Of a DNA stretch of 34,276 nucleotides, positions 1,454-31,864 are shown one piece after another (the stretch's first letter is position 1; each line of letters starts with the position of its first letter). Under the pieces are notes generated by a model. The model was not told the DNA's origin. It did not search any database and saw only the letters and a list, made by a program, of their open reading frames with translations. The DNA lies in NCBI GenBank assembly GCA_030631665.1, contig DAOVKU010000004.1, forward strand, positions 1 through 34,276, in the 5' to 3' direction. This DNA is from Candidatus Omnitrophota bacterium (lineage in GTDB: Bacteria > Omnitrophota > Gorgyraeia > DAOVKU01). The position numbers and the translations under genes are program-made.

Positions 1454-2203
1454 ATGCGTTCGAAAATGCTTGTTGGAAAGGTTGCTCTGATAACCGGAGG
1501 AGCAAGGGGGATTGGCAAAGAAATAGCACTTAGATTTGCCGAAGAGGGCTGTGCCGTCAATATCTGTGACATCTCCAGTGAGAATTTAAAGACAGTTAAA
1601 GAAGAAATAAAATCGCAAGGCGGAAAAGCCGAAGGATTTGTGGTTAATGTTGCTAATTTAAAAGAAGTTGAAAAAATGGTTGATATTATTCTTGACAAAT
1701 CAAAAAAAATTGATATACTTGTCAATAATGCTGGGATAACCAGAGACGCTCTTTTAATAAGAATGAGTGAGCAAGATTGGGATTTAGTTATAAGTGTTAA
1801 TTTGAAGGGAACATTTAATTGCTCCAAACTTGTCTCAAAGATTATGATGAAGCAACGAGGTGGCAAAATAATAAATGTTGCTTCCATCATTGGTTTGATG
1901 GGTAATGCGGGGCAGGCAAATTATTCAGCCAGCAAAGCCGGTGTTATAGGTATGACTAAATCTTTGGCAAAAGAATTAGGCTCCAGATGCATAAATGTAA
2001 ATGCCATTGCTCCCGGTTATATACAGACAGAGATGACAGCTAAGTTGTCTGAGGACGTGAAGAATAAGATGCTCCAAGAGATTCCCCTCAGGCGTTTTGG
2101 TTCAATTTCTGATGTTGCCGGTCTGGCTTTATTTTTGGCTGGCCCATCCTCTGATTATATAACTGGAGAAGTAATTACAGTAGATGGTGGTATGTTAATG
2201 TAA
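1454..2203 (+). CDS. fabG: 3-oxoacyl-ACP reductase (SDR family)
   Basis: TGGARGIG Rossmann motif, NNAG, YSASKAG catalytic motif, ITVDGGMLM C-terminus; ggagg RBS upstream. Confidence 0.95.
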   Translation: MRSKMLVGKVALITGGARGIGKEIALRFAEEGCAVNICDISSENLKTVKEEIKSQGGKAEGFVVNVANLKEVEKMVDIILDKSKKIDILVNNAGITRDALLIRMSEQDWDLVISVNLKGTFNCSKLVSKIMMKQRGGKIINVASIIGLMGNAGQANYSASKAGVIGMTKSLAKELGSRCINVNAIAPGYIQTEMTAKLSEDVKNKMLQEIPLRRFGSISDVAGLALFLAGPSSDYITGEVITVDGGMLM

Positions 2204-2211
2204 ATGAAACT

Positions 2212-2244
2212 CGAGTTTACGGAACTTCAGTGAACGTAAACTCG
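2212..2244. repeat. perfect 10-bp inverted repeat (CGAGTTTACG ... CGTAAACTCG), intergenic hairpin
   Basis: Arms 2212-2221 and 2235-2244 are exact reverse complements; located fabG-acpP. Confidence 0.7.
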
Positions 2245-2256
2245 TTAGTTGAACTT

Positions 2257-2273
2257 ATCCGCCTGAGGCGGAT
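2257..2273. repeat. dispersed palindromic element ATCCGCCTGAGGCGGAT
   Basis: Same core as palindromes at 14067, 18801 and 18868 in this window. Confidence 0.7.
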
Positions 2274-2346
2274 TTAATTCCGATAATAATTTATATTCAC
2301 TTCGTTCTATAAATTATATCGTCATTAAAAAAGGAGGAAGAAATAA

Positions 2347-2586
2347 ATGGCAGAAATAGTTGAAAAAGTTAAGCAAATTATCGCCGAACAATTAGGCGTG
2401 AAATTAGAAGAAATCAAACCCGAATCTTCATTTGTTGATGATTTAGGAGCAGATTCCCTTGATACTGTAGAATTGGTTATGGCACTGGAAGAGGAATTTA
2501 ATATAGAAATTCCTGATGAAGATGCTGAGAAGATGACCACTGTCACCGATGCTATTAAGTACATTGAGAAAAAAACTAAATCATAA
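2347..2586 (+). CDS. acpP: acyl carrier protein
   Basis: [21 protein letters not shown] phosphopantetheine site; ggaggaag RBS. Confidence 0.97.
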
Positions 2587-2604
2587 CCTAAATATAATCT
2601 AATT

Positions 2605-3846
2605 ATGAATGAGAGACGGGTGGTTGTTACTGGTGCTGGCGTGGTTTCTCCGGTTGGCAATACAAAGCAAGATTTTTGGAAGGCTCTTCTTGAAGGTAAA
2701 AGTGGTATTGACCGCTTGAAAAGTTTTGATTGTTCAAAATATCCCTCCCAGATAGCAGGTGAAGTAAAAAACTTTGATACAACTGATCTAATCCCTCCCA
2801 AGCAAGCAAGGCGTATGGATAAATTTGTCCAATATGCCGTAAGTTGCGCCTCTATGGCTTTAAAGGATTCAGGCCTAAATATAGAAAAGGAAGATCCTTA
2901 CCGTTTAGGCGTATTGGTAGGTTCAGGCATAGGGGGGTTAAGGGTTATTGAGCAAGAACATTCTGTTTTGCTCTCCAAGGGTCCGAACAGAGTTTCACCT
3001 TTTTTAATCCCCATGTTGATTGTAAATATGGCTTCTGGACAGATTGCTATATTTTTTGGCCTTAAAGGTCCCAACGCAACTGTGGCTACTGCTTGTGCGA
3101 GCGGAACTCATGCCATCGGAGATGCTTTTAGTATGATTAAATTAAATAGAGCTGATGTTATGGTAGCCGGCGGCACAGAGAGTTGCATTACTCCTTTGGG
3201 GCTGGCCGGTTTTTGTCAAATGAAGGCTCTTTCAACTAGAAACGATGAACCGCAGGCAGCCAGTCGTCCCTTTGACAAAGAACGAGATGGTTTTATAATG
3301 AGTGAAGGCTGTGGTATTGTTATTCTGGAAGAATTTTCTCATGCCATCAAAAGGAAAGCAAATATTTATGCCGAGCTTGTTGGTTACGGCACGAACTCAG
3401 ATGCTTATCATATTACTGCACCCGACCCTGAAGCCAACGGTCCGGCTATGGCTATGATTTGTGCCCTTAAGGATGCCAAGGTCAATTTGGAAGAAGTAGA
3501 TTATATAAATGCTCATGGGACATCCACACAGTTAAATGATAAAGTAGAAACTTTGGCTATAAAAAAGGTTTTTAAAAAATATGCCCGGAAAATAGCCATT
3601 AGCTCCATTAAATCCATGACCGGACACCTGTTGGGTGCTGCTGGTGGTGTTGAGTTTGTAGCTACCTCATTGGCTATAAAAGAAGGTATTATCCCGCCTA
3701 CTACAAATTACCAATATCCAGATCCCAATTGCGACTTAGATTATGTCCCCAATACCGCCAGAAAATTAGAGATTGAAGTTGCGCTTACCAATTCTCTTGG
3801 TTTTGGCGGCCACAATGCCATTTTAGTTTTAAAAAAATTTAAATGA
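2605..3846 (+). CDS. fabF: 3-oxoacyl-ACP synthase II
   Basis: VVVTGAGVVSPVG, TACASGTHAIG catalytic Cys, NAHGTST, NSLGFGGHNA. Confidence 0.96.
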   Translation: MNERRVVVTGAGVVSPVGNTKQDFWKALLEGKSGIDRLKSFDCSKYPSQIAGEVKNFDTTDLIPPKQARRMDKFVQYAVSCASMALKDSGLNIEKEDPYRLGVLVGSGIGGLRVIEQEHSVLLSKGPNRVSPFLIPMLIVNMASGQIAIFFGLKGPNATVATACASGTHAIGDAFSMIKLNRADVMVAGGTESCITPLGLAGFCQMKALSTRNDEPQAASRPFDKERDGFIMSEGCGIVILEEFSHAIKRKANIYAELVGYGTNSDAYHITAPDPEANGPAMAMICALKDAKVNLEEVDYINAHGTSTQLNDKVETLAIKKVFKKYARKIAISSIKSMTGHLLGAAGGVEFVATSLAIKEGIIPPTTNYQYPDPNCDLDYVPNTARKLEIEVALTNSLGFGGHNAILVLKKFK

Positions 3847-4055
3847 GTTCCGGATTTAAGAAAGGGAGTAAGACTTTTCGCTTTGTCCATAACCGGACTT
3901 GTCCACTTTCGGGGACTTCCTTTGGTCGCTTAGGTCGCTTGGAATTACAGTGTTAAGGAATGAAACAACGAAGTGTGAATATAAGTTTGTATATTTAAAT
4001 TTGACCCGCCTGAGACAGACAGTATTAAAATTTAGAATTTATTAGGGAGGTTATT

Positions 4056-5219
4056 ATGGATTATTTATTGACCGAAGAGCAGAAAATGGTGCGTGATTTA
4101 TGCCGTCAGATTACAGAAGAAAAAATTAGGCCGGTAGTTGGTGAGCTTGATAAGAAAAGAGAATTTCCGACTCAGATAATGAAAGTAATAGCTGACAGTG
4201 ACCTTTTCGGAATATATCTCCCGGAAGAATATGGAGGAACCGGCGGAGGTGTATTAGAGTTATGTATTGCCACCGAAGAGTTTTCTAAGGCTTGCGGTGG
4301 TATAGCGGTGTGCTATGCCGCCAGCGCTTTGGGCGCTATACCTATTTTATTGTTTGGAAATCAAGAACAGAAAAAAAAGTATTTGCCGCGCCTGGCTAGT
4401 GGAAAAAGTTTAGCGGCTTTCGGATTAACAGAGCCCGAAGCAGGAAGTGATGCCTCGGCTGTTAGCACTACTGCCAAAAAAGACGGTGATTACTATGTAT
4501 TAAATGGCACCAAACATTTTATTACCAACGGGGGTGTAGCTGATATTTATACCATTGTAACTATGACTGATAAGACAAAAGGTGCAAGAGGTTTTTCATG
4601 TTTTATCGTAGAAAAAGATACACCCGGTTTTACCTTTGGCAAAAAGGAAGAGAAAATGGGCATCAGGGCTTCTGTTACCACCGAACTTATTTTTAATGAG
4701 TGCAGGATTCCTAAGGAAAATCTGCTTGGCAAGGAGGGTATGGGATTTATAATTACCATGAAAACTTTTGACGTTTCGCGTCCGGGTGTCGCTGCGCAGG
4801 CAGTGGGCATTGCGCAGGGCGCGCTTGATTTAGCCGTTGAATATTCAAAAGAAAGAAAACAGTTCGGAAAAAGTATTTCCAGTTTTCAGGGTATTCAGTT
4901 TATGATAGCAGATATGGCCACGCAAGTAGAGGCTGCCAGGGCCCTTGTTTATTCAGTAGCCAGAATGGTGGATGCGGGTAATACCAAAGTAGCTAAGGAG
5001 TCAGCTATGGCTAAATTATTTGCAAGCGATACAGCTATGAGTGTTACCACAGATGCTGTTCAGATTTTCGGTGGTTATGGTTATATGAAAGACTATCCCA
5101 TAGAGAAATATATGAGAGACGCCAAGATAACGCAGATTTATGAGGGCACCAATCAGATTCAACGTAGTATTATTGCGCTCGGAGTTCTTAGGGAAGCCAA
5201 AGCAAAAAATAAAATTTAA
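4056..5219 (+). CDS. acyl-CoA dehydrogenase
   Basis: AFGLTEPEAGSDA, ERKQFGK, QIFGGYGYMKDYPIEKYMRDAKITQIYEGTNQIQR motifs. Confidence 0.95.
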   Translation: MDYLLTEEQKMVRDLCRQITEEKIRPVVGELDKKREFPTQIMKVIADSDLFGIYLPEEYGGTGGGVLELCIATEEFSKACGGIAVCYAASALGAIPILLFGNQEQKKKYLPRLASGKSLAAFGLTEPEAGSDASAVSTTAKKDGDYYVLNGTKHFITNGGVADIYTIVTMTDKTKGARGFSCFIVEKDTPGFTFGKKEEKMGIRASVTTELIFNECRIPKENLLGKEGMGFIITMKTFDVSRPGVAAQAVGIAQGALDLAVEYSKERKQFGKSISSFQGIQFMIADMATQVEAARALVYSVARMVDAGNTKVAKESAMAKLFASDTAMSVTTDAVQIFGGYGYMKDYPIEKYMRDAKITQIYEGTNQIQRSIIALGVLREAKAKNKI

Positions 5220-5277
5220 AAGGATTAAACCTGTGTTAGGTACATAGGAATTTTAGGCTACTTATTTCTAATCAATT

Positions 5278-6060
5278 ATGAATATTATTGTTTGCATTAA
5301 ACAGGTTCCCGAAACCACTGAGGTCAAGATAGATCCCGAGACAAATACTTTAATTAGGGAAGGGGTGGCCTCAATCATTAACCCTTTTGATACCTATGCT
5401 ATTGAGGAAGCATTAAGAATTAAAGAAAGGATAGCATCTAAAGTTATGGTCTTAAGTATGGGGCCGCCTCAGGCCGAAGAAGCACTTAGGCAGGCTATAG
5501 CTATGGGGGCAGATGAGGCTGTGTTGCTTTCTGACCGCAGTTTTGCCGGGGCAGATACATTGGCTACCAGTTACACTCTTTCCAAAGGTATTTCGAAGAT
5601 CGGTGAATATAATCTGATTATTTGTGGCAAACAAGCCACCGATGGCGATACAGCACAGGTTGGACCCGGCATTGCTGAACATCTCAATATTCCGTGCGCG
5701 ACTTTTGTAAAAAAAATAGAAAAAATAGAAACCGATAAAATTGTTGTTGAAAGCATGAGAGAAGAAGGTTGTGATGTAATTGAGATACCTTTGCCTTGTG
5801 TTATCACAGTTGTTAAAGAGATAAATGAGCCTCGCTTGCCTTCTTTTAAAGGAATGTTGCGGGCAAAAAAACAAGAGATAAAAATCTGGGGTAAATCCGA
5901 CATCGGAGCAGAGGAAGGTTGTATAGGCTTAGATGGTTCGCCGACTCAGGTAATAAAAATATTTACACCTCCTGCGAGAAAAGGCGGTTTAATTTTAGAA
6001 GGTTCAGCTAAAGAAGTAACAGAAAAAATAGTTTCTCTTCTTGAGAACGAAATAAAATAA
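5278..6060 (+). CDS. etfB: electron transfer flavoprotein beta subunit
   Basis: MNIIVCIKQVPET..., NPFDTYAIEEALRIKE, GKQATDGDTAQVGPGIAEHL. Confidence 0.94.
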   Translation: MNIIVCIKQVPETTEVKIDPETNTLIREGVASIINPFDTYAIEEALRIKERIASKVMVLSMGPPQAEEALRQAIAMGADEAVLLSDRSFAGADTLATSYTLSKGISKIGEYNLIICGKQATDGDTAQVGPGIAEHLNIPCATFVKKIEKIETDKIVVESMREEGCDVIEIPLPCVITVVKEINEPRLPSFKGMLRAKKQEIKIWGKSDIGAEEGCIGLDGSPTQVIKIFTPPARKGGLILEGSAKEVTEKIVSLLENEIK

Positions 6061-6067
6061 AAATCCT

Positions 6068-7282
6068 ATGGCTGAAGAACAAATCAGAATTTTAAAAGAT
6101 AAGTGCACTCTATGCAAGCTTTGTATTAAAGCCTGTCCCTATAATGCCATTTCAATGGTTGGGGGAGAAATAAGTATAGATCTAGATAAATGTACACTGT
6201 GCCGTGCCTGCTTGAGTGTGTGTAAATTTCAAGCCATAGAAATAAGCCAAAAATCTGGTTTCCCCTCTATTGTGAGAGTTGCTGAGGCGAGTGGCGTGTG
6301 GGTTTTTGCCGAGCAAAAAAAAGGAATAGTTCAACCAGTTGTTTTCGAATTATTATCAAAAGCCAGAGAACTGGCAGTTGATTGCCAAAGTGAAGTTTGT
6401 TGTGTTCTTTTGGGTGATAAGAGCATTAAGAGCCAGGCCCGGGTGCTTATTAAAAAAGGAGCAGATAAAGTTATTCTGGTAGAAAGTGAAAAATTAAGAA
6501 ATTATCAGGATGATAGTTATTCAAATATTTTAGAATATCTCATAAGAAAATATAAGCCGGAGATTATCCTCTGCGGGGCTACATCTATCGGGCGTTCGCT
6601 TATACCCAGAGTAGCGGTTAGAATCAGAACCGGTTTAACTGCCGATTGCACTGCTCTGGCCATGGATAAAAAGGAGAAGTTACTTTTGCAAACCCGGCCT
6701 GCTTTCGGTGGAAATATAATGGCAACTATTATTTGTCCACACCACCGGCCGCAAATGGCCACAGTCAGGCACAAAGTAATGAAGGAACTTTTATCAGAAG
6801 ATAATAGACATGGTCAAGTGATAGAAGAAGAAATGCCGGATGAACTTTTAAATAATCGCACCATATTAAGAGGGGTAATTGAAGAAGTTGAATCTACCCA
6901 AAATATAGCCGAAGCAGATATAATAATTTCTGGTGGAAGAGGTTTGCAGGGGAAAGAAAATTTTAGATTAATTGAAGACCTGGCCAAAACTTTGAATGCC
7001 GCCGTTGGTGCTTCTCGGGCCGCAGTTGATAGTGACTGGATATCTTATTCTCATCAGGTTGGACAGACCGGTCGAACAGTTTGTCCAAAGATTTATTTCG
7101 CCATCGGTATATCCGGGCAGATTCAGCATTTAATTGGCATGCAATCTTCCAAAATTATTATAGCTATCAACAAGGATCCCCACGCACCCATTTTTGAAAT
7201 TGCTACTTATTCCGTTATCGGAGACCTTTTTGAAATAGTTCCTATCTTAATCGCTGAATTTAAAAAAGTTTTAAATAAATAA
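6068..7282 (+). CDS. etfA: electron transfer flavoprotein alpha subunit with N-terminal 2x[4Fe-4S] ferredoxin domain
   Basis: Two Cys motifs CTLCKLCIKACP and CTLCRACLSVCK, followed by EtfA FAD-domain sequence (GRGL..., VGASRAAVDSDWISYSHQVGQTGRTVCPKIYFAIGISGQIQHLIGM). Confidence 0.93.
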   Translation: MAEEQIRILKDKCTLCKLCIKACPYNAISMVGGEISIDLDKCTLCRACLSVCKFQAIEISQKSGFPSIVRVAEASGVWVFAEQKKGIVQPVVFELLSKARELAVDCQSEVCCVLLGDKSIKSQARVLIKKGADKVILVESEKLRNYQDDSYSNILEYLIRKYKPEIILCGATSIGRSLIPRVAVRIRTGLTADCTALAMDKKEKLLLQTRPAFGGNIMATIICPHHRPQMATVRHKVMKELLSEDNRHGQVIEEEMPDELLNNRTILRGVIEEVESTQNIAEADIIISGGRGLQGKENFRLIEDLAKTLNAAVGASRAAVDSDWISYSHQVGQTGRTVCPKIYFAIGISGQIQHLIGMQSSKIIIAINKDPHAPIFEIATYSVIGDLFEIVPILIAEFKKVLNK

Positions 7283-7446: not shown

Positions 7447-10400
7447 ATGAAGTTAAAAAAAATAGAACTGTTTGGCTTTAAATCATTTGCAGATAAAACC
7501 GAACTTTCCTTTGAAGCCGGTGTTACGACTATTGTGGGTCCCAACGGCGTTGGCAAATCGAATATAGCCGAAGCCATCAAATGGGTTTTAGGTGAGCAGA
7601 ATGCCAGGGAGCTGCGTGGGCTTAAAATGGAAGACGTGATATTTAATGGAACCCAAACTCGTCCGCCTCTAAATTTTTCTGAAGTTTCGCTTACTTTCCA
7701 GAATAAAGATAAAATTCTTCCCGTAGATTATGATGAGGTTGTTATTACCAGGCGCGTATTCCGGACAGGAGAAAGTCAATATTTATTAAATAAAACACCG
7801 GTTCGTCTTAAAGATATTAACGATCTTTTGATGGGTACAGGCATAGGTCTTGATTCATATTCCATAATTGGCCAGGGTAAAATCGATCTTATTTTAAGTT
7901 CAAAACCGGAAGATCGACGGTGTATCTTTGAAGAAGCCGCTGGTATCACAAAATATAAATCCAAGAAGAAAGAAGCGCTTAGAAAACTTCAACATACCGA
8001 AAACAATTTGTTGCGAGTTAATGATATCATCCAGGAAGTTTCCCGGCAGATTTCTTCCATTGAACGCCAAGTAAAAAAAGCTAAAAAGTATAAGGAGAAA
8101 TTTGAGCAATTAAAAGAAAAACAAATTAAAGTTAACTCTCACGACCTTAAAAAATTAAAGAATATATTAAACTCACATTTAGACGAAGACCAAAAATTCA
8201 AAGAAAACGAAAAATTATTCTTAGAGGAAATAAAAAAGGCTGAGCTTCTTCTTTTAGAAAGCAAGCAAAAGTTATCTGAAATTGACGAGAATTTAAATAC
8301 TTTATATTCAAAAAAAGTAAACATAAATGCTCAAATTGAAAGTGCCAGGCAGCAAGTTAGCCTTAATACCGAGCGCATAACTGAACTGCAGAGGAGAAAA
8401 GAAAATTCAGAAAAACAGATTCAGTCAACACAAATAAAGTTACAGGAATTAAAGGAACAAATCGCAAAGATCAGAGAGGAATTAGCTGCCTTAAAAGAAG
8501 ATAAATTAAATAAAGCTGAAGAAAAATCTCAAAAAGAGCAGTACCTTAAAGAAATCACTTGTGAAATCGAGAATGCAGAAAAAAATATTAAAAATTGCAA
8601 AGAGAATATTTTTGAGGTTTCAAGTTTAGAATCCAGAACCAAAAATGAGCTGGCGAAAATTTCTGCTGACGAAGTAAATATAAAAGCACGGCTTAAACGA
8701 ATAAGAATAGAAAAAGAAGAAGTTAGAGAAGAACTGGAGAAAACAAGAGAAAAACTTTCTCATTTTAGTACGGAAAAAGAGAAAACAAGTAATGAAATTT
8801 CTTCTTTAAAGAAGCAGGGAGAACAGGTTCTTGGTAACGCAAATTTAAGAAAGCAGGCTCTTCTGGAAATAAAGAATCGACTTGAACAGTTAAATCAAAA
8901 GTTCATTGCTTCTCAGTCAAAATTGGAATATCTAAATGACTTGAGGCGAAAATTTGAAGGCTATCAGAATGGCGTAAAATCAATACTCATAGCCAAAGAG
9001 CAAGCGAAGCTGCCGCAGGATGATATCTTTAGACCCATTGCCAGTTTGATAGAAGTCGAACGCGGTTTTGAGAAGGCTGTTGAGGTGGCTTTAGGCGAGA
9101 AGGCGCAAATTCTTGTTGTTCGCGATGAGTCAGCACTTAAAAAATGTATAGGTTATCTTAAGGCTGAAGTTAAGGGAGACGCCACTTTTATTTGCCTGGA
9201 TACGATTCCGGACATAAAAAGTTCTTCCGATTTTAACTTAAAACCATTACTAAATGTAGTTAGCTATAGTCCGGAATTTGAAAAGGCCATTGGTTTTTTG
9301 TTTGCTGATATTTACCTAGTGGAAAATTTAGAAACAGCGCTTAAAGTAAGACAAGAAGCGCGCAGTAAAAACTTTAAACTAGTTACAAGAAATGGTGATG
9401 TGGTGGAGAACAGTTTGGTTACTTGTGGGGTTCGTCAACTGCAGGAGAACTCTCTTATAGGCAGGGGAGTGAGAATAAAAATTTTAGAAGAAGATATTAG
9501 TAAATGTAACCATGAAAAGGAAAATATGGGAGTTGCGAAGCAGAAAGAAGAAGAAGAATTAGAAAATTTTGAAATTACCTTACAAGGACTTAATTTTACT
9601 ATTCAGCGGAAAGAGATTGATTTAGCCAACCTGTCTTCCGGGCTTAGCTCGATTGAGGAAGAAAAAAAGAGAATTGATGATGAGGCATCTTTATTGAATC
9701 TCGAAATTACAGAAACTGAAGAAGAAGAAATTAAATTAACTGCCAGCAAGCAACGATTAGAACAAGAGATTGAAGAGACAAATAAATCTTTCTTTGAATT
9801 AGAATCGACTATGACCTCTAAAGAAGATTTAATTAAGGTTAAAAAAGAGGAAAGAGAACAGTTATTAATAGATATTACTCAATTAAAAACAGAACTAACG
9901 GCACTTACAGATTTAGAAATTAATCAAAATCAGACTGTCAAGATGATAGAGGACGGCAGCAGCGAAGCATTAGCATTATTCAATACTCAAAAACAAGAAA
10001 TAGAAGACGCCGAAGTGCGATTAAAAAATTTAGAGCTGGATATTAGCAAGATAAAACAAAATATAGAAAAATTAGAAGAAGATTATCAATTAACATCCAG
10101 TGAATTTAAAAATGCCTCCGCGTTAAAGGAAAATCAACTTAAAAGCATCAATGAAGTAGAAACCATTAGTGCCGGTAAACAGGAAGAACTTGAGAAGATT
10201 AAGAATACAATGCATAATTCGCAGGTTAAAAGCACAGAATTAAATTATCAAATACAGAATTTAAAAGAGCGCATATTTGAAAATTACAAAATCAATCTTG
10301 AAGAAATAAAAAAAGAAATCGAAGATGATTTTGACTGCGAGCGGGCAAAAGAAGAAATTTCTCAGTTAAAGCAAAAATTGGATTCTATGGGTGCGGTTAA

Positions 10401-18684: not shown

Positions 18685-18762
18685 CGGGGCGTAGCGCAGT
18701 TTGGCTAGCGCGCCTGCTTCGGGAGTAGGAGGTCGGCGGTTCAAATCCGCCCGCCCCGACCA
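18685..18762 (+). tRNA. tRNA-Pro(CGG), CCA encoded
   Basis: Cloverleaf by eye: acceptor CGGGGCG/CGCCCCG, D-stem GCGC/GCGC, anticodon arm CCTGC-TTCGGGA-GTAGG, T-arm GGCGG-TTCAAAT-CCGCC, ACCA. Confidence 0.95.
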
Positions 18763-18763
18763 A
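18743..18763 (+). repeat. left copy of 21-bp direct repeat (tRNA-Pro 3' end), candidate attL
   Basis: AAATCCGCCCGCCCCGACCAA identical to 24035-24055. Confidence 0.85.
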
Positions 18764-18766
18764 TAC

Positions 18767-18900
18767 TTTGGTTTAGCGCGTCCACCTCAGGCAGAAGGTC
18801 GTCCGCCTAAGGCGGACCGCCCCGACCAATGCTTTTGGTTTAGCGCATCCACATCAGACGGTAGGTCGTCCGCCTGAGGCGGACAGCCCTGACCAAAAAA
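18767..18900 (+). repeat. two 67-nt degenerate copies of the tRNA-Pro D-arm-to-3'-end segment (18767-18833, 18834-18900)
   Basis: In register with the tRNA segment 18700-18766 (TTTGGNTTAGCGC ... AGGTCG ... GCCCNGACCA); T-arm replaced by GTCCGCCTNAGGCGGAC. Confidence 0.85.
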
Positions 18901-19115
18901 AGTAGATGCCTGCCTGTGGTAGGCAGATATTTCCGGAAGATTTGGAAAAAGCGGAATATTTGGCATAAAAAGAAATAAATGACGATTTTGCCATATTATA
19001 CCTAATACGTATTTTATGATATTGCGGGGCAATTACGGATAGGGAAAAAGAATTGCAGGAAGAATTAGTCACTATTTTGATTGAATTAGCTCTTAGAGAC
19101 TGCATATATAAAGAA

Positions 19116-19146
19116 AATATGTATTCCATATATTAATTGTTATGTG
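19116..19146 (+). repeat. half attC-like site, near-identical to 22347-22377; R' = GTTATGT (19139-19145)
   Basis: AATATGTATTCCATATATTAATTGTTATGTG vs AATATGTATTCCACATATTAATTGTTATACG. Confidence 0.65.
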
Positions 19147-19180
19147 AAAAAATAATTAAAATAAAAAAGGAGATAAAGAC

Positions 19181-19267
19181 GTGGGTGATAAAGGACAGAA
19201 AGATAAGGATAAAAAAGTAAAGCAATCAAAAGAGAAAAAAGAGAAAAAAAATAAAAAACAAAAATAA
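19181..19267 (+). CDS. 28-aa lysine-rich small protein (MGDKGQKDKDKKVKQSKEKKEKKNKKQK)
   Basis: GTG start with AAGGAG RBS 7 nt upstream; below the ORF-track cutoff; sole ORF of its cassette. Confidence 0.65.
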   Translation: MGDKGQKDKDKKVKQSKEKKEKKNKKQK

Positions 19268-19391
19268 ACTGTTTAATAAAACAAATTCGTCAAGTGGATT
19301 ACAGTTAAAGAATTAAGAGACGAAGTGCTTTGTTTGCTTAAGGAAATAGGGGTTGTAGTTTAAAAAGTTTAAAGTATGAATGAATAAAAAC

Positions 19392-19470
19392 ACATAACAA
19401 CGCACTACACCTGACCTTTTCCCGCGCCCTATCGGGCTTGGTCAAAGTCAGGTGAGCTTGAATGTTATAG
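19392..19470 (+). repeat. attC-like recombination site 1
   Basis: R'' ACATAAC, L'' CTACACCTGAC, L' GTCAGGTGAG (one extrahelical A), R' GTTATAG. Confidence 0.85.
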
Positions 19471-19484
19471 GATAAAAAATAAAA

Positions 19485-19970
19485 ATGAAAAGAAAAAACA
19501 TTGTTTTAATATTAGTCTTAGCCATAATCACGTTACATATTTACTGCCAAGATATTTTTGCAAAAAATAATATTAACACACATACATTTTATAAGGCCTA
19601 TACAATTAATGTGCCCAATGATAACTATATAATAATCAGTATGCGTAGTTTTGGACCTGATAATTATTTACTGTTAGACATGAAGGCTAATGAAATTTTT
19701 ATATATTCACCCTATAAGGAAAAGGGCTTATTATTAAAAAGAAAACTCACTAAAGAAGAATCTTTTTCAATTCTCGCAATATTTGAATCAAAAGAATATA
19801 TGAATATATCCGAAAGGAACAGTAAAGTAGCCCGTGATGCAACTGAAATTAAAATTACTTCTACAATTAAGAAAAGAGAAAAACGTATTCATCACATAAT
19901 GCCCGATAACAAAATTATTAAAGATATAATAAATTTATACAACGAACTAAACGTTATAGAAAATAAATAA
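19485..19970 (+). CDS. hypothetical exported protein (cassette B)
   Basis: Intact ORF with N-terminal hydrophobic signal (KNIVLILVLAIITLHIYC); fills the cassette between attC sites. Confidence 0.75.
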   Translation: MKRKNIVLILVLAIITLHIYCQDIFAKNNINTHTFYKAYTINVPNDNYIIISMRSFGPDNYLLLDMKANEIFIYSPYKEKGLLLKRKLTKEESFSILAIFESKEYMNISERNSKVARDATEIKITSTIKKREKRIHHIMPDNKIIKDIINLYNELNVIENK

Positions 19971-19978
19971 CAATTAAC

Positions 19979-20063
19979 CTATAACAATTCGCTTCACATT
20001 GACCGGAACCTGTGCCCGATTTCATCGGTCACGGATTCCGGCAAGTGAGCTCAAATGTTATGC
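19979..20063 (+). repeat. attC-like recombination site 2
   Basis: R'' CTATAAC, L'' TTCACATTGACCGGAA vs L' TTCCGGCAAGTGAGC, R' GTTATGC. Confidence 0.85.
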
Positions 20064-20096
20064 AATACGTAGCAAAAATAAGCATAAGGAGAAATA

Positions 20097-20837
20097 ATGT
20101 CGATACCTAAGGTTTTTATCTCTTACTCACATGATACCCAAGAACATAAAAAGTGGGTTTTAGATTTAGCTACTCGTTTACGGGGGGGCGGTGTTGACGC
20201 AATCATTGATCAATGGGAACTAAGGCCAGGTGACGATCTGCCTCACTTTGTGGAAACTCACCTGGCTGATTCAGATTATGTAATTATGGTCTGTACGGAT
20301 AGGTATGTTGAAAAAGCAAATAAGGGTGTCGGCGGTGTCGGATATGAAAAGATGATTATTACGGCCGATCTGTTTGCCAATATCGATTCTAACAAAATCA
20401 TTCCTATTATCCGGCAAAGTGGAACTCACAACGTCCCTACATTTCTGAAAACCAAACTATTTGTTGATTTCTCTCATTCAGGTGATTACGAATACAGCTT
20501 CGATGAACTTGTAAGAACCTTCCATGATGCCCCTCTTTTTGAAAAGCCTGCCATCGGCAATAGTCCTTTCATACCGATAGAAGATATTCGACCAGAAAAA
20601 ACAGGCGATGCCCTACGCGAATTAATGGCCATAGTCGTAACCGATTTTGAAGCAGGGTATGATTGGTCAGTCTACAAATCAATTGTCAAAAAAGTTGGAG
20701 TGTCAAGGATAATGCTTGATTCACTTATAATGGAGGCTAAAAAGAAAGGTTTAGTCACTCAAGATTCCGATAAAGATCTCCGTTTAGCTGAAAAAGGCAA
20801 ATTCTATGCGGTCGAACATAAATTAGTGAAAGCATAA
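20097..20837 (+). CDS. SEFIR/TIR-domain protein with C-terminal winged-helix-like region (cassette C)
   Basis: KVFISYSHDTQEHKKWVLDLATRLRGGGVDAIIDQWELRPGDDLPHFVETHLADSDYVIMVCTDRYVEKAN...GGVGYE; GGAG RBS. Confidence 0.85.
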   Translation: MSIPKVFISYSHDTQEHKKWVLDLATRLRGGGVDAIIDQWELRPGDDLPHFVETHLADSDYVIMVCTDRYVEKANKGVGGVGYEKMIITADLFANIDSNKIIPIIRQSGTHNVPTFLKTKLFVDFSHSGDYEYSFDELVRTFHDAPLFEKPAIGNSPFIPIEDIRPEKTGDALRELMAIVVTDFEAGYDWSVYKSIVKKVGVSRIMLDSLIMEAKKKGLVTQDSDKDLRLAEKGKFYAVEHKLVKA

Positions 20838-20909
20838 CAAAGCGCTGCACCCGACTGTTAGCCGCCGCCTTCGGTGTCGGGCGCTAGCAGGTGAGCTTGA
20901 ATGATATAG
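20832..20909 (+). repeat. attC-like recombination site 3 (R' mutated: GATATAG)
   Basis: R'' GCATAAC; L boxes pair; R' has GAT instead of GTT. Confidence 0.75.
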
Positions 20910-20917
20910 GAGAAAAA

Positions 20918-21511
20918 ATGAAAATATTGAAAGAAATATTAAAGGCATTAAAAGAACTAATCTCAATAATTTTAGGCTTTGCTTTAGTGGCTTTCATTTG
21001 CTGGGGAATTTATCTCATAGCAAATAAAGTGATTTCTGTATTTATAAAACTGGATCCTACTGTTGCTGCCAGTTTAATAGCGGCTTCAGTAACAATTATT
21101 GTGTCTGTTATTTCTGTTTTGTTGGCTAAACTTTTAGAACATAGGTCCGAGATCCGTAAAGAAATGCGTATAAAAAAAATTCCTGCATACACTGACTTAA
21201 TAAATTTTATGTTTCGAGTATCTTTTGCTAAAAAAAGAGGACAAAACCCGCCAACCGAAAAAGAGATACTTGATTTTTTTCAAGGATTCACAGAAAAAAT
21301 TGTTGTATGGGGATCAGATGATGTAATTAATGCTTTTAATGCTTTTCGTACTTTTGCACAAAAAACTCAAACTGCGCAAAGTGAAAATATTTTATTTGTA
21401 GCAGAGACATTATTTTTAACAATAAGAAAAGATCTCGGACATAAAAATAAGGGCTTAACAAAAGGCAAACTCTTAGGGCTTTTTGTAAATGATATTGAAA
21501 AATACCTATAA
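20918..21511 (+). CDS. membrane protein, two predicted TM helices plus cytoplasmic domain (cassette D)
   Basis: Hydrophobic segments IILGFALVAFICWGIYLIA and AASLIAASVTIIVSVISVLLA; ATG at 20918 with TAGGAG upstream. Confidence 0.75.
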   Translation: MKILKEILKALKELISIILGFALVAFICWGIYLIANKVISVFIKLDPTVAASLIAASVTIIVSVISVLLAKLLEHRSEIRKEMRIKKIPAYTDLINFMFRVSFAKKRGQNPPTEKEILDFFQGFTEKIVVWGSDDVINAFNAFRTFAQKTQTAQSENILFVAETLFLTIRKDLGHKNKGLTKGKLLGLFVNDIEKYL

Positions 21512-21580
21512 CCAGACAATACATCTGACCTTACTCTGCGGCTGCGCCGTTCCGCAAGGCAGCTGATTTTTGTATTATGT
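21506..21580 (+). repeat. degenerate attC-like site 4
   Basis: R'' CTATAAC and L'' CATCTGACC clear; L' GGCAG partial; R' decayed (ATTATGT). Confidence 0.6.
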
Positions 21581-21593
21581 GAGAAAAACTAAA

Positions 21594-22328
21594 ATGCCCA
21601 GAGATAAAAAAATTAAGAAAATATTTGAGATAGCCGATGATGGAATCCAAGGAGTAGTGGGCTATTTCTTTTATGTCCTTGCGTGCAAGAATGCAGTCAA
21701 TGCAAATTCCCTTCTGTCAAAACTTCCCGATAAAGTCATTCCAATTACCCATGAATGGTCTCGATACTATAATCCACATGACCTTATTGATATTATGAAT
21801 TCGCTTTTTAATCCATATCATGCCCGCATATGTTTGATTTCAACAATTAGCATATTTGAAGGAGCATTAAAAAATTTTATTGAAAGACTCTTGGATGCAA
21901 ATAAAATTAAACAGTCTCCTAAAAATAGCTATAAGAAAAAACTTGAATGGATATTTCGCGAAGTATTAAAATCTAATTATGGCACAGCCACAATGATAGC
22001 AAGAATACCTGAACTTTGCCTGCATATCGATCATGCCCGACGCATAAGAAATCTATGGATGCATAATAATGGTCTTTTTGATGAGCACTATAAAAAAGAC
22101 GGTATTTTGTTGCCGAAATATTCTCCCATTATTGATGTCTCATATAAAAATAAAAAACCGGTTATAATAAAACCTGAATGGTTTCTTGCTATGTGTCATT
22201 CACACATAGAGTTATTGCACCAAATCCATTACCAACTACAAAAGAAATATTTTGGTCAAAAAAAATCCTATAGCTATAAAGAATTAAAAAAACGTATTGA
22301 GTGGCATAGGCTTTTAACTGGTGTATAA
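21594..22328 (+). CDS. HEPN-like protein with R-X4-H motif (cassette E)
   Basis: HARRIRNLWMHNNGLFDEHY contains RNLWMH (R-X4-H); ATG 21594 chosen over TTG 21570, which lies in the attC. Confidence 0.6.
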   Translation: MPRDKKIKKIFEIADDGIQGVVGYFFYVLACKNAVNANSLLSKLPDKVIPITHEWSRYYNPHDLIDIMNSLFNPYHARICLISTISIFEGALKNFIERLLDANKIKQSPKNSYKKKLEWIFREVLKSNYGTATMIARIPELCLHIDHARRIRNLWMHNNGLFDEHYKKDGILLPKYSPIIDVSYKNKKPVIIKPEWFLAMCHSHIELLHQIHYQLQKKYFGQKKSYSYKELKKRIEWHRLLTGV

Positions 22329-22335
22329 TGAAAAT

Positions 22336-22376
22336 ACATAACAATTAATATGTATTCCACATATTAATTGTTATAC
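22336..22376 (+). repeat. short, nearly perfect palindromic attC-like site 5
   Basis: ATAACAATTAATATGT-ATTCC-ACATATTAATTGTTAT; 16-bp perfect stem, R'' ACATAAC and R' GTTATAC. Confidence 0.65.
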
Positions 22377-22383
22377 GAAAAAT

Positions 22384-23079
22384 ATGGAAATATCGATTAT
22401 GGAAACATTCAAGGTAATAGGAATTGGTCTTGCGACAAATGGAACATTACTTGCATTATTTATAATCATTTTTAAAAAATGTTTTGACGCTTGGCTATCT
22501 AAATCAACCGAAATTCATCTGAAGAAAATTGAATTGGAAAACAATAAGAATTTATATAGTTATGGAAAAATTTTCGACGAACAAGCAGCAATAATTAAAG
22601 AAATTTATTCTGATATAACTGTAATTTTCGGAAATATTCAGCATTTATTATATCACTTTAATTTATTGGAGAATAATCCTGAATTATTCGATCACTTGCG
22701 AATTCCTAAAAACGGAGACGGCCCAAAATGGGATAAATATCTCAAGGCAACGCTATCAGAAAGTCGTGAAGAAAAAATTGCTAAAAAAACTTCTGAGCTT
22801 GCAAGTACAACAACAAGAAAAATTCAATCCAATAAAATATTTTTTCCCAAGCATATAGCAAATGAATTAGAAGTATTATCTACTCTTGGTTTTTTTATAG
22901 CATCACAGTTCAAAAATGTTACTTATAGAGATCCTGAAACATTTGAAACTCCTATTGCTAATGAAGTTATTGAAACCTGGAAACAAGCAATAGAAACATC
23001 AAGAACGACACTACCTATTTTAGAAGATATGTTTAGAAAACATTTGAGGATAGAAGAAACAGAAAAAAATGACGTATAA
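22384..23079 (+). CDS. hypothetical protein with single N-terminal TM segment (cassette F)
   Basis: Intact ORF; GIGLATNGTLLALFIIIF hydrophobic segment then coiled/charged domain. Confidence 0.7.
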   Translation: MEISIMETFKVIGIGLATNGTLLALFIIIFKKCFDAWLSKSTEIHLKKIELENNKNLYSYGKIFDEQAAIIKEIYSDITVIFGNIQHLLYHFNLLENNPELFDHLRIPKNGDGPKWDKYLKATLSESREEKIAKKTSELASTTTRKIQSNKIFFPKHIANELEVLSTLGFFIASQFKNVTYRDPETFETPIANEVIETWKQAIETSRTTLPILEDMFRKHLRIEETEKNDV

Positions 23080-23139
23080 CAACTCAATACACCCGACCTT
23101 TTCCGCCGCTCCAAAGGCGGGTGATTTCGGGCGTTATAG
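23074..23139 (+). repeat. attC-like recombination site 6
   Basis: R'' GTATAAC, ATACACCCGACC vs revcomp ATCACCCGCC (extrahelical bases), R' GTTATAG. Confidence 0.85.
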
Positions 23140-23151
23140 GAAAATAAATTT

Positions 23152-23943
23152 ATGAAAATAGAGAATTGGGAAGATTTTGAAGAAAAAATAAAAAAAATTT
23201 ATTCTAAAGTTCAAAGACTCAAAACTAAAGAGAATGCTTCCAAAGTTTCAACTCCACTATTTCGCGGTCAAAGCGATGCTGCATGGGAATTAAAAACAAC
23301 GTTAGATAGATTGGAAAGTAATTTCTCAGTTGAAAAATACTACAGAATAATTCGCAGCATAAAATCTGCTGTAGAAAGCTACACATCAAATCGTTGGCAA
23401 TTGCCAACCATCGAACGAGACTTAACTCAACTAGATAAATACGATACAATATCTATGCCTTCTTATGAATTTATGACACACCTTAGGCATAATTGTTTCC
23501 CCTCACCACTCTTAGACTGGACAAGATCACCATATATTGCAGCTTTTTTTGCCTTCAATGAAGACAAAAAGACAGATCCGGCAATTTATGTGTATATTGA
23601 ATTTACTGGTAAAGGGAAAACTTGGCGTTCTGACAAGGCAAAGATTTGTTCATTGGGGCCGAATGTTACAACACACAAACGACATCATCTGCAGCAGAGT
23701 GAATACACTTTTTGCATAAAAGGAATGGACAAAAAATACTCATATGCACCCCATGAAGAAGTCATATCAAGATCAAGTACAGATCAAGACATTATTGAAA
23801 AATACAGTTTACCTTATTCTGAAAGAGCATTTTTTTTGAACAAACTAAATCAAATGAATATTAATGCTTATTCCCTTTTTGAAAATGAAGAAGGATTAAT
23901 GAATAAACTTGCAAATGAAGAATTGTTAATAAAAAACCTATAA
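23152..23943 (+). CDS. FRG-domain protein (cassette G)
   Basis: PLFRGQSDAAWELKTTLDR near the N-terminus and MTHLRHNCFPSPLLDWTRSPYIAAFFAF. Confidence 0.82.
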   Translation: MKIENWEDFEEKIKKIYSKVQRLKTKENASKVSTPLFRGQSDAAWELKTTLDRLESNFSVEKYYRIIRSIKSAVESYTSNRWQLPTIERDLTQLDKYDTISMPSYEFMTHLRHNCFPSPLLDWTRSPYIAAFFAFNEDKKTDPAIYVYIEFTGKGKTWRSDKAKICSLGPNVTTHKRHHLQQSEYTFCIKGMDKKYSYAPHEEVISRSSTDQDIIEKYSLPYSERAFFLNKLNQMNINAYSLFENEEGLMNKLANEELLIKNL

Positions 23944-24003
23944 CAATTCGCTGAAGCCGACCATTTTGCTGCGCAAAATGGCGGCTTAGCTCAAGAACAA
24001 TAA
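23938..24003 (+). repeat. attC-like recombination site 7 with lost R' box
   Basis: CTATAACAATTCGCTGAAGCCGACC...GGCGGCTTAGCTCAAG resembles the class 1 integron aadA-type attC; expected GTTATAG replaced by AACAATAAA. Confidence 0.8.
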
Positions 24004-24034
24004 AGGGGACGGTTCTATTAAAATATGGGAAGAG

Positions 24035-24055
24035 AAATCCGCCCGCCCCGACCAA
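24035..24055 (+). repeat. right copy of 21-bp direct repeat (tRNA-Pro 3' end), candidate attR
   Basis: AAATCCGCCCGCCCCGACCAA identical to 18743-18763, with no tRNA 5' half. Confidence 0.85.
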
Positions 24056-30973: not shown

Positions 30974-31864
30974 TTGAATGAATTAGCAGAGCAGTTCTTA
31001 AATTATCTTTTTGTTGAACGCGGTCTGGCCAGAAATACTATTTCTAGTTATCGGACCGACTTAAAAAAATTTCATTCTTTTCTGAAAAAAAAAGGAAAAA
31101 CATCGGTTGATAATATAACCAGGGAAGATATCAGAAATTTTTTAATGGACCTTAAGGATAAAAAGCTTTCTGTTAATTCCATAGCCAGAAATCTAATTTG
31201 CATTAAATCTTTTTTTAAATATCTTATAAATGAAAGAATTATCAAAGATGATATTACCGCAGTGCTTGAGTCGCCTAAATTATGGAAGAAACTTCCTGAT
31301 ACTTTGAGCATTGAAGAGGTAGATAAAATTATTTTAAAAGCAAATTTTAAAAATAGACAGGGTATAAGAGATAAAGCTATCCTGGAGGTTCTCTATGGTA
31401 CCGGCATGCGGGTTTCCGAAGCGGTCAATCTCAAACTCAGAGACATTAATTTTGAAGTCGGGTTTTTAAAATGCAAGGGCAAGGGGCAGAAGGAAAGAAT
31501 TGTGCCTTTCGGCGATAAGGCTAAGACTGCTATCAAACGATATTTAAAAGAGGCGCGTCCCAAGTTTATTTTAAAAAAAAGAGATGTGCCGGAAATCTTT
31601 TTATCCAGATTGGGCAGGCCAATATCAAGGGTTTCCATTTGGAAAATGATAAAGACTTACACCAGAAAAGCTAATATTAAAAAAAATATAACGCCTCATA
31701 CTTTAAGGCATTCTTTCGCTACGCATATGCTTGAGGGGGGTGCGGATTTAAGAGTAGTACAGGAACTTTTGGGTCACGCTGATATTTCCACAACACAAGT
31801 TTATACCCACATAAATAAAGATAGACTTAAAAGCATTCATCATAAATATCATCCCAGACCGTAA
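30974..31864 (+). CDS. xerD: XerC/XerD-type tyrosine recombinase
   Basis: TGMRVSEAVNL, HTLRHSFATHMLEGGADLRVVQELLGHADISTTQVYTHI. Confidence 0.9.
   Translation: MNELAEQFLNYLFVERGLARNTISSYRTDLKKFHSFLKKKGKTSVDNITREDIRNFLMDLKDKKLSVNSIARNLICIKSFFKYLINERIIKDDITAVLESPKLWKKLPDTLSIEEVDKIILKANFKNRQGIRDKAILEVLYGTGMRVSEAVNLKLRDINFEVGFLKCKGKGQKERIVPFGDKAKTAIKRYLKEARPKFILKKRDVPEIFLSRLGRPISRVSIWKMIKTYTRKANIKKNITPHTLRHSFATHMLEGGADLRVVQELLGHADISTTQVYTHINKDRLKSIHHKYHPRP

Follow-up and report, generated by a model that had tools for sequence, protein, structure and literature searches.

An integron cassette array that appears to keep its attI without an integrase in an Omnitrophota genome

Among the integron elements catalogued for complete bacterial genomes, roughly one in two is a cluster of attC sites lacking an integrase (CALIN), and CALINs are regarded as degraded integrons. 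They are defined by attC sites alone, and IntegronFinder seeks no attI outside class 1 (PMC9024848). Class 1 and class 2 integrons also harbour an established class of cassettes, the delta-attI type, whose origin has been explained by a crossover between the L box of attI and the R'' box of attC, after which a fragment of attI stands where the attC would be (PMC12901181). Here we analyse a cassette array in a 34,276-nucleotide stretch of contig DAOVKU010000004.1 from a Candidatus Omnitrophota bacterium (assembly GCA_030631665.1), the whole stretch being referred to as the window. The original prediction, made from the sequence alone, was a CALIN of about seven one-gene cassettes.

We consider it likely that the window carries an integrase-less integron platform, composed of an attI followed by seven + strand cassettes that were captured by an integron integrase (IntI) and are now frozen. 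Comparison with relatives shows that the site at the head of the array is an attI like those adjacent to intI, that six cassettes end in an attC, and that one ends in an attI-derived site. Genomes of the phylum, whether or not they have intI, carry similar attI-headed arrays without intI at several loci each. Neither attI-headed CALINs nor dispersed attI platforms were found described in the open-access papers that we searched; most subscription journals were outside this search, and priority is not established.

The array and its recombination sites

Model R1, a covariance model, was built on a bottom-strand alignment of 30 attC sites from intI-adjacent arrays in other genomes of the phylum, with no window sequence in the training set. 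These sites were picked up beside true integron integrases by a fold-based scan; a strict regular-expression finder had been dropped as too rigid, and the fold-based finder and then covariance models were used instead. The R and L boxes of the training set covary strongly (score 0.460, versus 0.172 for shuffles and at most 0.113 for slid controls). Searched with filters off, the window yields six attC matches of 27-60 bits, a CALIN being defined by at least two such sites less than 4 kb apart. Outside these six sites and a short palindrome at 22336-22376 (17.7 bits, E 0.15), the top score in the window is 10.7 bits. The predicted attC array without a neighbouring integrase is thus recovered by an independent model; the count of matches could have fallen below two and did not, nor did the palindromes turn out to be a dispersed repeat family without relation to gene boundaries.

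All six sites have the anatomy of attC, with R'' and R' core boxes, L boxes, an extrahelical base and a bottom-strand fold, R' being decayed in three of them. Intact cores are found in attC 1 (19392-19470, + strand like all the others; 52.6 bits; GTTATAG), attC 2 (19979-20063; 45.4 bits; GTTATGC) and attC 6 (23074-23139; 60.3 bits, E 1.6e-10; GTTATAG), which is the best site. The core is mutated to GATATAG in attC 3 (20832-20909; 45.8 bits) and to TATTAT in attC 4 (21506-21580; 27.1 bits, E 0.0016), while attC 7 (23938-24005; 27.5 bits, E 0.0014) has lost its right end, including the R' core, with AACAATAAAGGGGACGGTTCT in its place. In the original prediction the palindromes end with GTTATRS or a decayed form (R'). 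Folded as bottom-strand DNA, attC 1, 2 and 7 (z -4.4, -6.5 and -5.7) and the short palindrome (z -7.1) far outperform their shuffles; the site at 23074 does so modestly (z -2.4), and the two decayed sites at 20832 and 21506 only weakly (z -0.8 and -1.7). The sites lie directly 3' of a + strand open reading frame (ORF), except the first one, whose ORF is doubtful.

Since three of the six attC sites lack the crossover triplet, the window array is probably frozen. Intact cores were counted in 59 of 60 sites of integrase-linked arrays, in 47 of 52 sites of orphan arrays from genomes with intI, in 47 of 56 from genomes without it, and in 5 of 8 in the genome studied here, counts in which half of the integrase-linked sites had trained R1 and in which R1 favours intact sites. 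This trend would fit a frozen, decaying array. The broken last attC is adjoined by AATAAAGGGGACGGTTCTATT (23996-24034), which we take to be similar to repeats associated with repetitive extragenic palindromes (REPs) and their RAYT transposases. A sequence of the GGGGACGTTGTTAA type, similar to AATAAAGGGGACGGTTCTATT, is also present upstream of attI at two loci of other genomes (L122 and L123). An Rfam scan of the window returned tRNA alone and no other family.

The head of the array was examined with R2, a sequence model built from 18 attI sites beside intI in other genomes of the phylum. On the array side of the integrase coding match, at a distance of 433-546 bp, complete integrons of the phylum carry a conserved motif of roughly AAA-N-A-N-GAA-N-TTCGTATATTAATTGTTAG, the last part of which is the GTT crossover core. 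The exception is a locus with an unusual layout (L028 of genome G123), where attI lies at 1550, attC sites at 2051-7171 and intI at 8062-9018 on the + strand, so that the integrase stands at the far end of the array and points in the same direction. In the window, R2 identifies a site at 19093-19149 on the + strand (33.8 bits; E 1e-9 in the window and 4.9e-8 genome-wide), with its GTT core at 19139-19141 and no intI alongside. Judged by this match, the palindrome at 19116, initially counted among the trailing attC sites, is an attI docking site and not an attC. An open frame at about 19031-19128, AITDREKELQEELVTILIELALRDCIYKEN, extends into this attI and is an apparent 3' gene remnant. A search for a conserved -10 promoter at a fixed distance upstream of attI gave weak, spread signals only, and promoter scans of the window remained at chance level; no promoter is claimed.

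A second attI sequence is found at the 3' end of cassette 5, where the original prediction also expected an attC. This site (22336-22382, + strand) consists of an R'' box, CATAAC, fused to a copy of attI from AATATGTATTCC on. R2 matches it at 22324-22380 with 29.9 bits, and a repeat search aligned it with 92% identity over 36 bp to the head attI (19116-19151). It contains a perfect 16-bp dyad (22338-22374) with a GTT core at 22370-22372; the third R2 match in the window (16.2 bits) is the reverse strand of this palindrome. An R'' followed by a truncated cognate attI with GTTRRRY, here GTTATAC, is the signature of delta-attI-type cassettes, which the end of cassette 5 matches at the sequence level; its recombination activity is putative. 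Cassette 5 would have arisen from a misplaced crossover between attI and attC, in which a piece of attI replaced its attC.

The head attI is one component of a complete integron; as for the other, an intI with the IntI-specific region, Xer-type matches alone were obtained. True IntI was defined as TIGR02249 above its curated cut-off (265 bits) and is present in 21 of 386 genomes of the phylum, in line with the earlier remark that this lineage does not look like the usual gammaproteobacterial hosts. No intI above this cut-off was found in the whole assembly of the studied genome (93% complete, 128 contigs), and no similarity to IntI was found near the array. Two recombinase proteins match TIGR02249 with 57-90 bits per segment and resemble the XerC/XerD pair of relatives; the gene of one of them lies within the window (30974-31864). 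It is likely that intI is truly absent from the genome. The proposed genome-wide search thus gave no integrase and two further lone attC sites, on contigs C76 and C66. The first of these (C76:3829-3889, locus L056) overlaps the 3' end of an ATP-pyrophosphatase-like gene and is itself followed by a methyltransferase-like ORF (both named by eye).

attI platforms across the phylum

R2 was also searched in 37 other genomes that have attC sites without an intI above the cut-off, in 21 genomes with intI, and in 20 control genomes with neither, the last of which gave two attI matches at E<=0.001. From the first two sets, 85 attI sites not adjoining an intact intI were examined. Forty-nine of them have a same-strand attC within 1.5 kb downstream (median 577 bp), and none has an attC on the opposite strand; three have a same-strand attC upstream and are therefore located inside an array. 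As R1 and R2 were built independently, their 49:0 agreement on order and strand leaves little room for chance.

Several genomes carry more than one such site. For example, genome G047 (20 contigs, without intI) has many attI-headed arrays, and genomes with intI have extra ones, in which near-identical platforms are followed by different cassettes. attI copies at separate loci of one genome have 145-235 bp of upstream sequence in common, and in the best within-genome pairs the match ends 3-6 bases past the G of GTT. G119 carries, on a separate contig, an orphan attI with 99.5% identity to the integrase-linked one across 206 bp; beyond this stretch the cassettes differ, and the two arrays have attC sites of one type (93-96%) and different genes. 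Similarly, linked and orphan attI are 98.8% identical over 161 bp in G160, where the first cassette of the orphan array is one found further inside the linked array. In some linked copies, the common upstream stretch seems to reach the first codons of intI. Such copies would be expected if one integrase worked on several platforms, and duplication followed by cassette loss could account for part of the pattern. Inverted-repeat transposition of platforms was considered and rejected, as the left boundaries of ten pairs, compared by eye, have no common motif.

Two loci show attI sequences at other positions. In a single-contig genome (G073; L129:5759-6284), attI lies directly 3' of an ilvC-like gene, and the 3' end of this gene together with attI (about 70 bp, 93%) recurs past the first cassette. 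In G285 (L124:5314-7295), a 240-bp gene-less unit with a terminal attI is repeated within an array, directly past an attC, as if a piece of attI had moved like a cassette.

The scattered integrase-less attI sites of related genomes suggest that a single integrase is able to supply many arrays simultaneously. Whether integrons of the phylum are generally distributed in this way, one integrase, sometimes absent, serving several attI platforms and the window holding a satellite platform, is in our judgement an evenly balanced question. A platform would then consist of attI and about 150-235 bp upstream, copied to separate loci and building its own array from a common cassette pool. For the integrase-less platform proposed here, cassettes would have been captured singly, IntI recombining the folded bottom strand of an attC with this attI; that IntI would have been either a product of this locus, its gene being lost since, or the product of a gene elsewhere that served several attI platforms in trans. 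With no integrase now, the array would be frozen and decaying, and a repeated tRNA 3' end delimits the segment that holds it.

Possible origins of the array

This repeat belongs to a tRNA-Pro (CGG) gene detected by ARAGORN and Rfam (RF00005) at 18685-18762 on the + strand, which forms the left edge of the insert. Its 3' end, AAATCCGCCCGCCCCGACCAA, is present as an exact 21-bp direct repeat on both sides of the insert (18743-18763 and 24035-24055, both + strand), and a 20-mer of it has only two exact occurrences in the whole genome, both of them flanking the array. Repeat searches also revealed two degenerate tandem copies of the 3' part of tRNA-Pro (18767-18896, + strand, 87% alike), which are perhaps scars of earlier insertions. 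A tRNA-targeted island may thus have carried the array, as passive cargo of an element inserted by a tyrosine recombinase that has since been lost; we give this history, which is compatible with an integrase-less attI platform, roughly even chances. In its favour, the same genome has an island at a tRNA-Ser (GCT) gene (L057:7411-7502, in C66:8000-24000), with a 26-bp direct repeat about 7.4 kb downstream; the island carries one lone attC, genes for a tyrosine recombinase of 365 aa and a DGQHR-like protein, and a DNA methyltransferase-like gene. However, ORF and family searches found no recombinase gene between 18763 and 24055. In addition, a tRNA gene of the same orientation precedes the window attI and five other orphan attI sites (L114, L143, L163, L164 and L181) by 310-615 bp, a proximity that exceeds chance by a rough estimate, but the five others show no tRNA 3'-end repeat in the sequence examined. 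A same-family genome, sought through the neighbouring acyltransferase for its empty site, was not found among relatives.

Somewhat less probable, in our view, is an ordinary decayed integron, in which intI was deleted in place from an intI-attI-array arrangement and nothing acted in trans. Complete integrons do exist in the phylum, half of the window attC sites have no core, and intI fragments still clearly adjoin two of the 85 orphan attI (L125 and L151). Yet the roughly 330 bp from tRNA-Pro to attI hold no trace of intI, and a single in-place decay does not explain the many arrays of G047 or the near-identical platforms with different cassettes in genomes with intI.

Several observations nevertheless weigh against the integrase-less platform that we favour. 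A contig start is no more than 1 kb away from about 10 of the 85 orphan attI, which may be severed from an integrase; together with the intI fragments, these cases imply that ordinary decay of integrase genes, or breaks between contigs, produced part of the orphan pattern. For the window attI, no other copy has a long stretch of matching upstream sequence. Moreover, the incompleteness and fragmentation of the assembly make an intI elsewhere possible, and the relatives, which include no same-family genome, provide no undamaged ancestor of this array and no unoccupied site for comparison.

It is improbable that the cassettes entered a chromosomal secondary site (attG) instead of an attI. IntI is reported to be able to place cassettes in genomic attG sites whose sequence departs strongly from that of classical att sites (cited in PMC12901181), and Xanthomonas has CALINs distant from the integrase at several loci (PMC12444791). 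The head site, however, matches attI over about 36 positions, far beyond the GTT core, and copies in other genomes have up to 235 bp in common with intI-linked attI. Finally, a dispersed palindromic repeat family (similar to REPs or to miniature inverted-repeat transposable elements) or an assembly or binning artefact, for which the REP-like sequence beside the last site and a fragmented assembly with 6% contamination might speak, is refuted by the R1 and R2 results and has a negligible probability, given the covariation of R and L boxes, the strict order of attC after gene, the 49:0 strand bias relative to attI, and the same patterns in the single-contig genomes G217 and G333.

Cassette genes and relation to known systems

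The prediction of seven one-gene cassettes on the + strand holds for six of them. Cassette 1 (19140-19464) has no convincing gene: its 28-codon, lysine-rich ORF with a GTG start at 19181 may not be a gene, which would leave the cassette ORF-less. The gene of cassette 3 (20097-20837) encodes a SEFIR/TIR-like protein (Pfam TIR_2, 2.6e-21; SEFIR, 1.8e-14) that is assigned to bSEFIR by PADLOC (2.8e-78), its residues 1-185 aligning with positions 35-232 of the 412-position profile, so that it is shorter than the model. Cassette 7 (gene at 23152-23943) encodes an FRG-domain protein (Pfam FRG, 2.8e-18) that matches the PADLOC candidate PDC-S15 (4e-33). The cassettes thus hold at least two putative phage-defence genes. 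The first cassette of another orphan array, in G047 (L113:7045-7536), is also FRG-domain-like, with 23% identity over 172 aa to cassette 7 of the window. For the other cassette genes, the family search assigned no family: those of cassettes 2 (19485-19970, 161 aa, with a DUF6438 match below the cut-off), 4 (20918-21511, 197 aa), 5 (21594-22328, 244 aa) and 6 (22384-23079, 231 aa) are of unknown function, the products of 4 and 6 being apparently membrane-anchored.

Relatives of the bSEFIR protein with 69-86% identity were found in Aliidiomarina, Idiomarina, Pseudomonas khazarica and a Chloroflexota genome, where, on reading the sequence, their genes are followed by attC-like sequences unlike the attC sites of the window. 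R1 gave a weak score to the Chloroflexota site and detected other attC in the Aliidiomarina locus. These loci suggest that the gene circulates between phyla in the form of a cassette. The nearest relative, a cassette protein of Aliidiomarina (Gammaproteobacteria), is 86% identical. We rejected a recent transfer of this cassette because the DNA is only 74% identical.

On the sequence comparisons presented here, the window element is best described as an integrase-less array keeping its attI, one of many in the phylum. The phylum-wide attI model indicates that many integrase-less arrays retain a docking site and that one genome can have several of them. With it, the question of whether integrase-less arrays are dead remnants or satellites supplied in trans becomes open to testing. 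The CALIN reading is supported but incomplete: the array keeps an attI, a site inside it derives from attI, and arrays of this build occur across the phylum, often several times per genome.

Like the CALINs listed by IntegronFinder (PMC9024848), the window array has at least two close attC sites, no intI nearby or in the assembly, and one gene per cassette in the same orientation; unlike them, it keeps an identifiable attI at its head. Cassette 5 resembles the delta-attI cassettes known from integrons of classes 1 and 2 in ending with R'' and a truncated attI rather than an attC, and in the attI-gene-attI and attC-gene-attI orders. It differs from them in lying in a chromosomal, integrase-less array of an environmental lineage, and in that its hybrid site is a perfect 16-bp dyad; in a relative, the L124 array also contains the gene-less attI unit of about 240 bp. 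Sedentary chromosomal integrons of Vibrio and Xanthomonas likewise have an attI, cassettes of mostly unknown function with some defence genes, and attC sites that are homogeneous per genome, as in G119, whereas arrays are small here, and one intI and several attI platforms occupy separate loci rather than forming a single intI-attI-array. Finally, attG-inserted cassettes (Loot et al. 2024, cited in PMC11023631) are also found at several chromosomal loci away from intI, but the targets here are copies of attI, not strongly divergent secondary sites.

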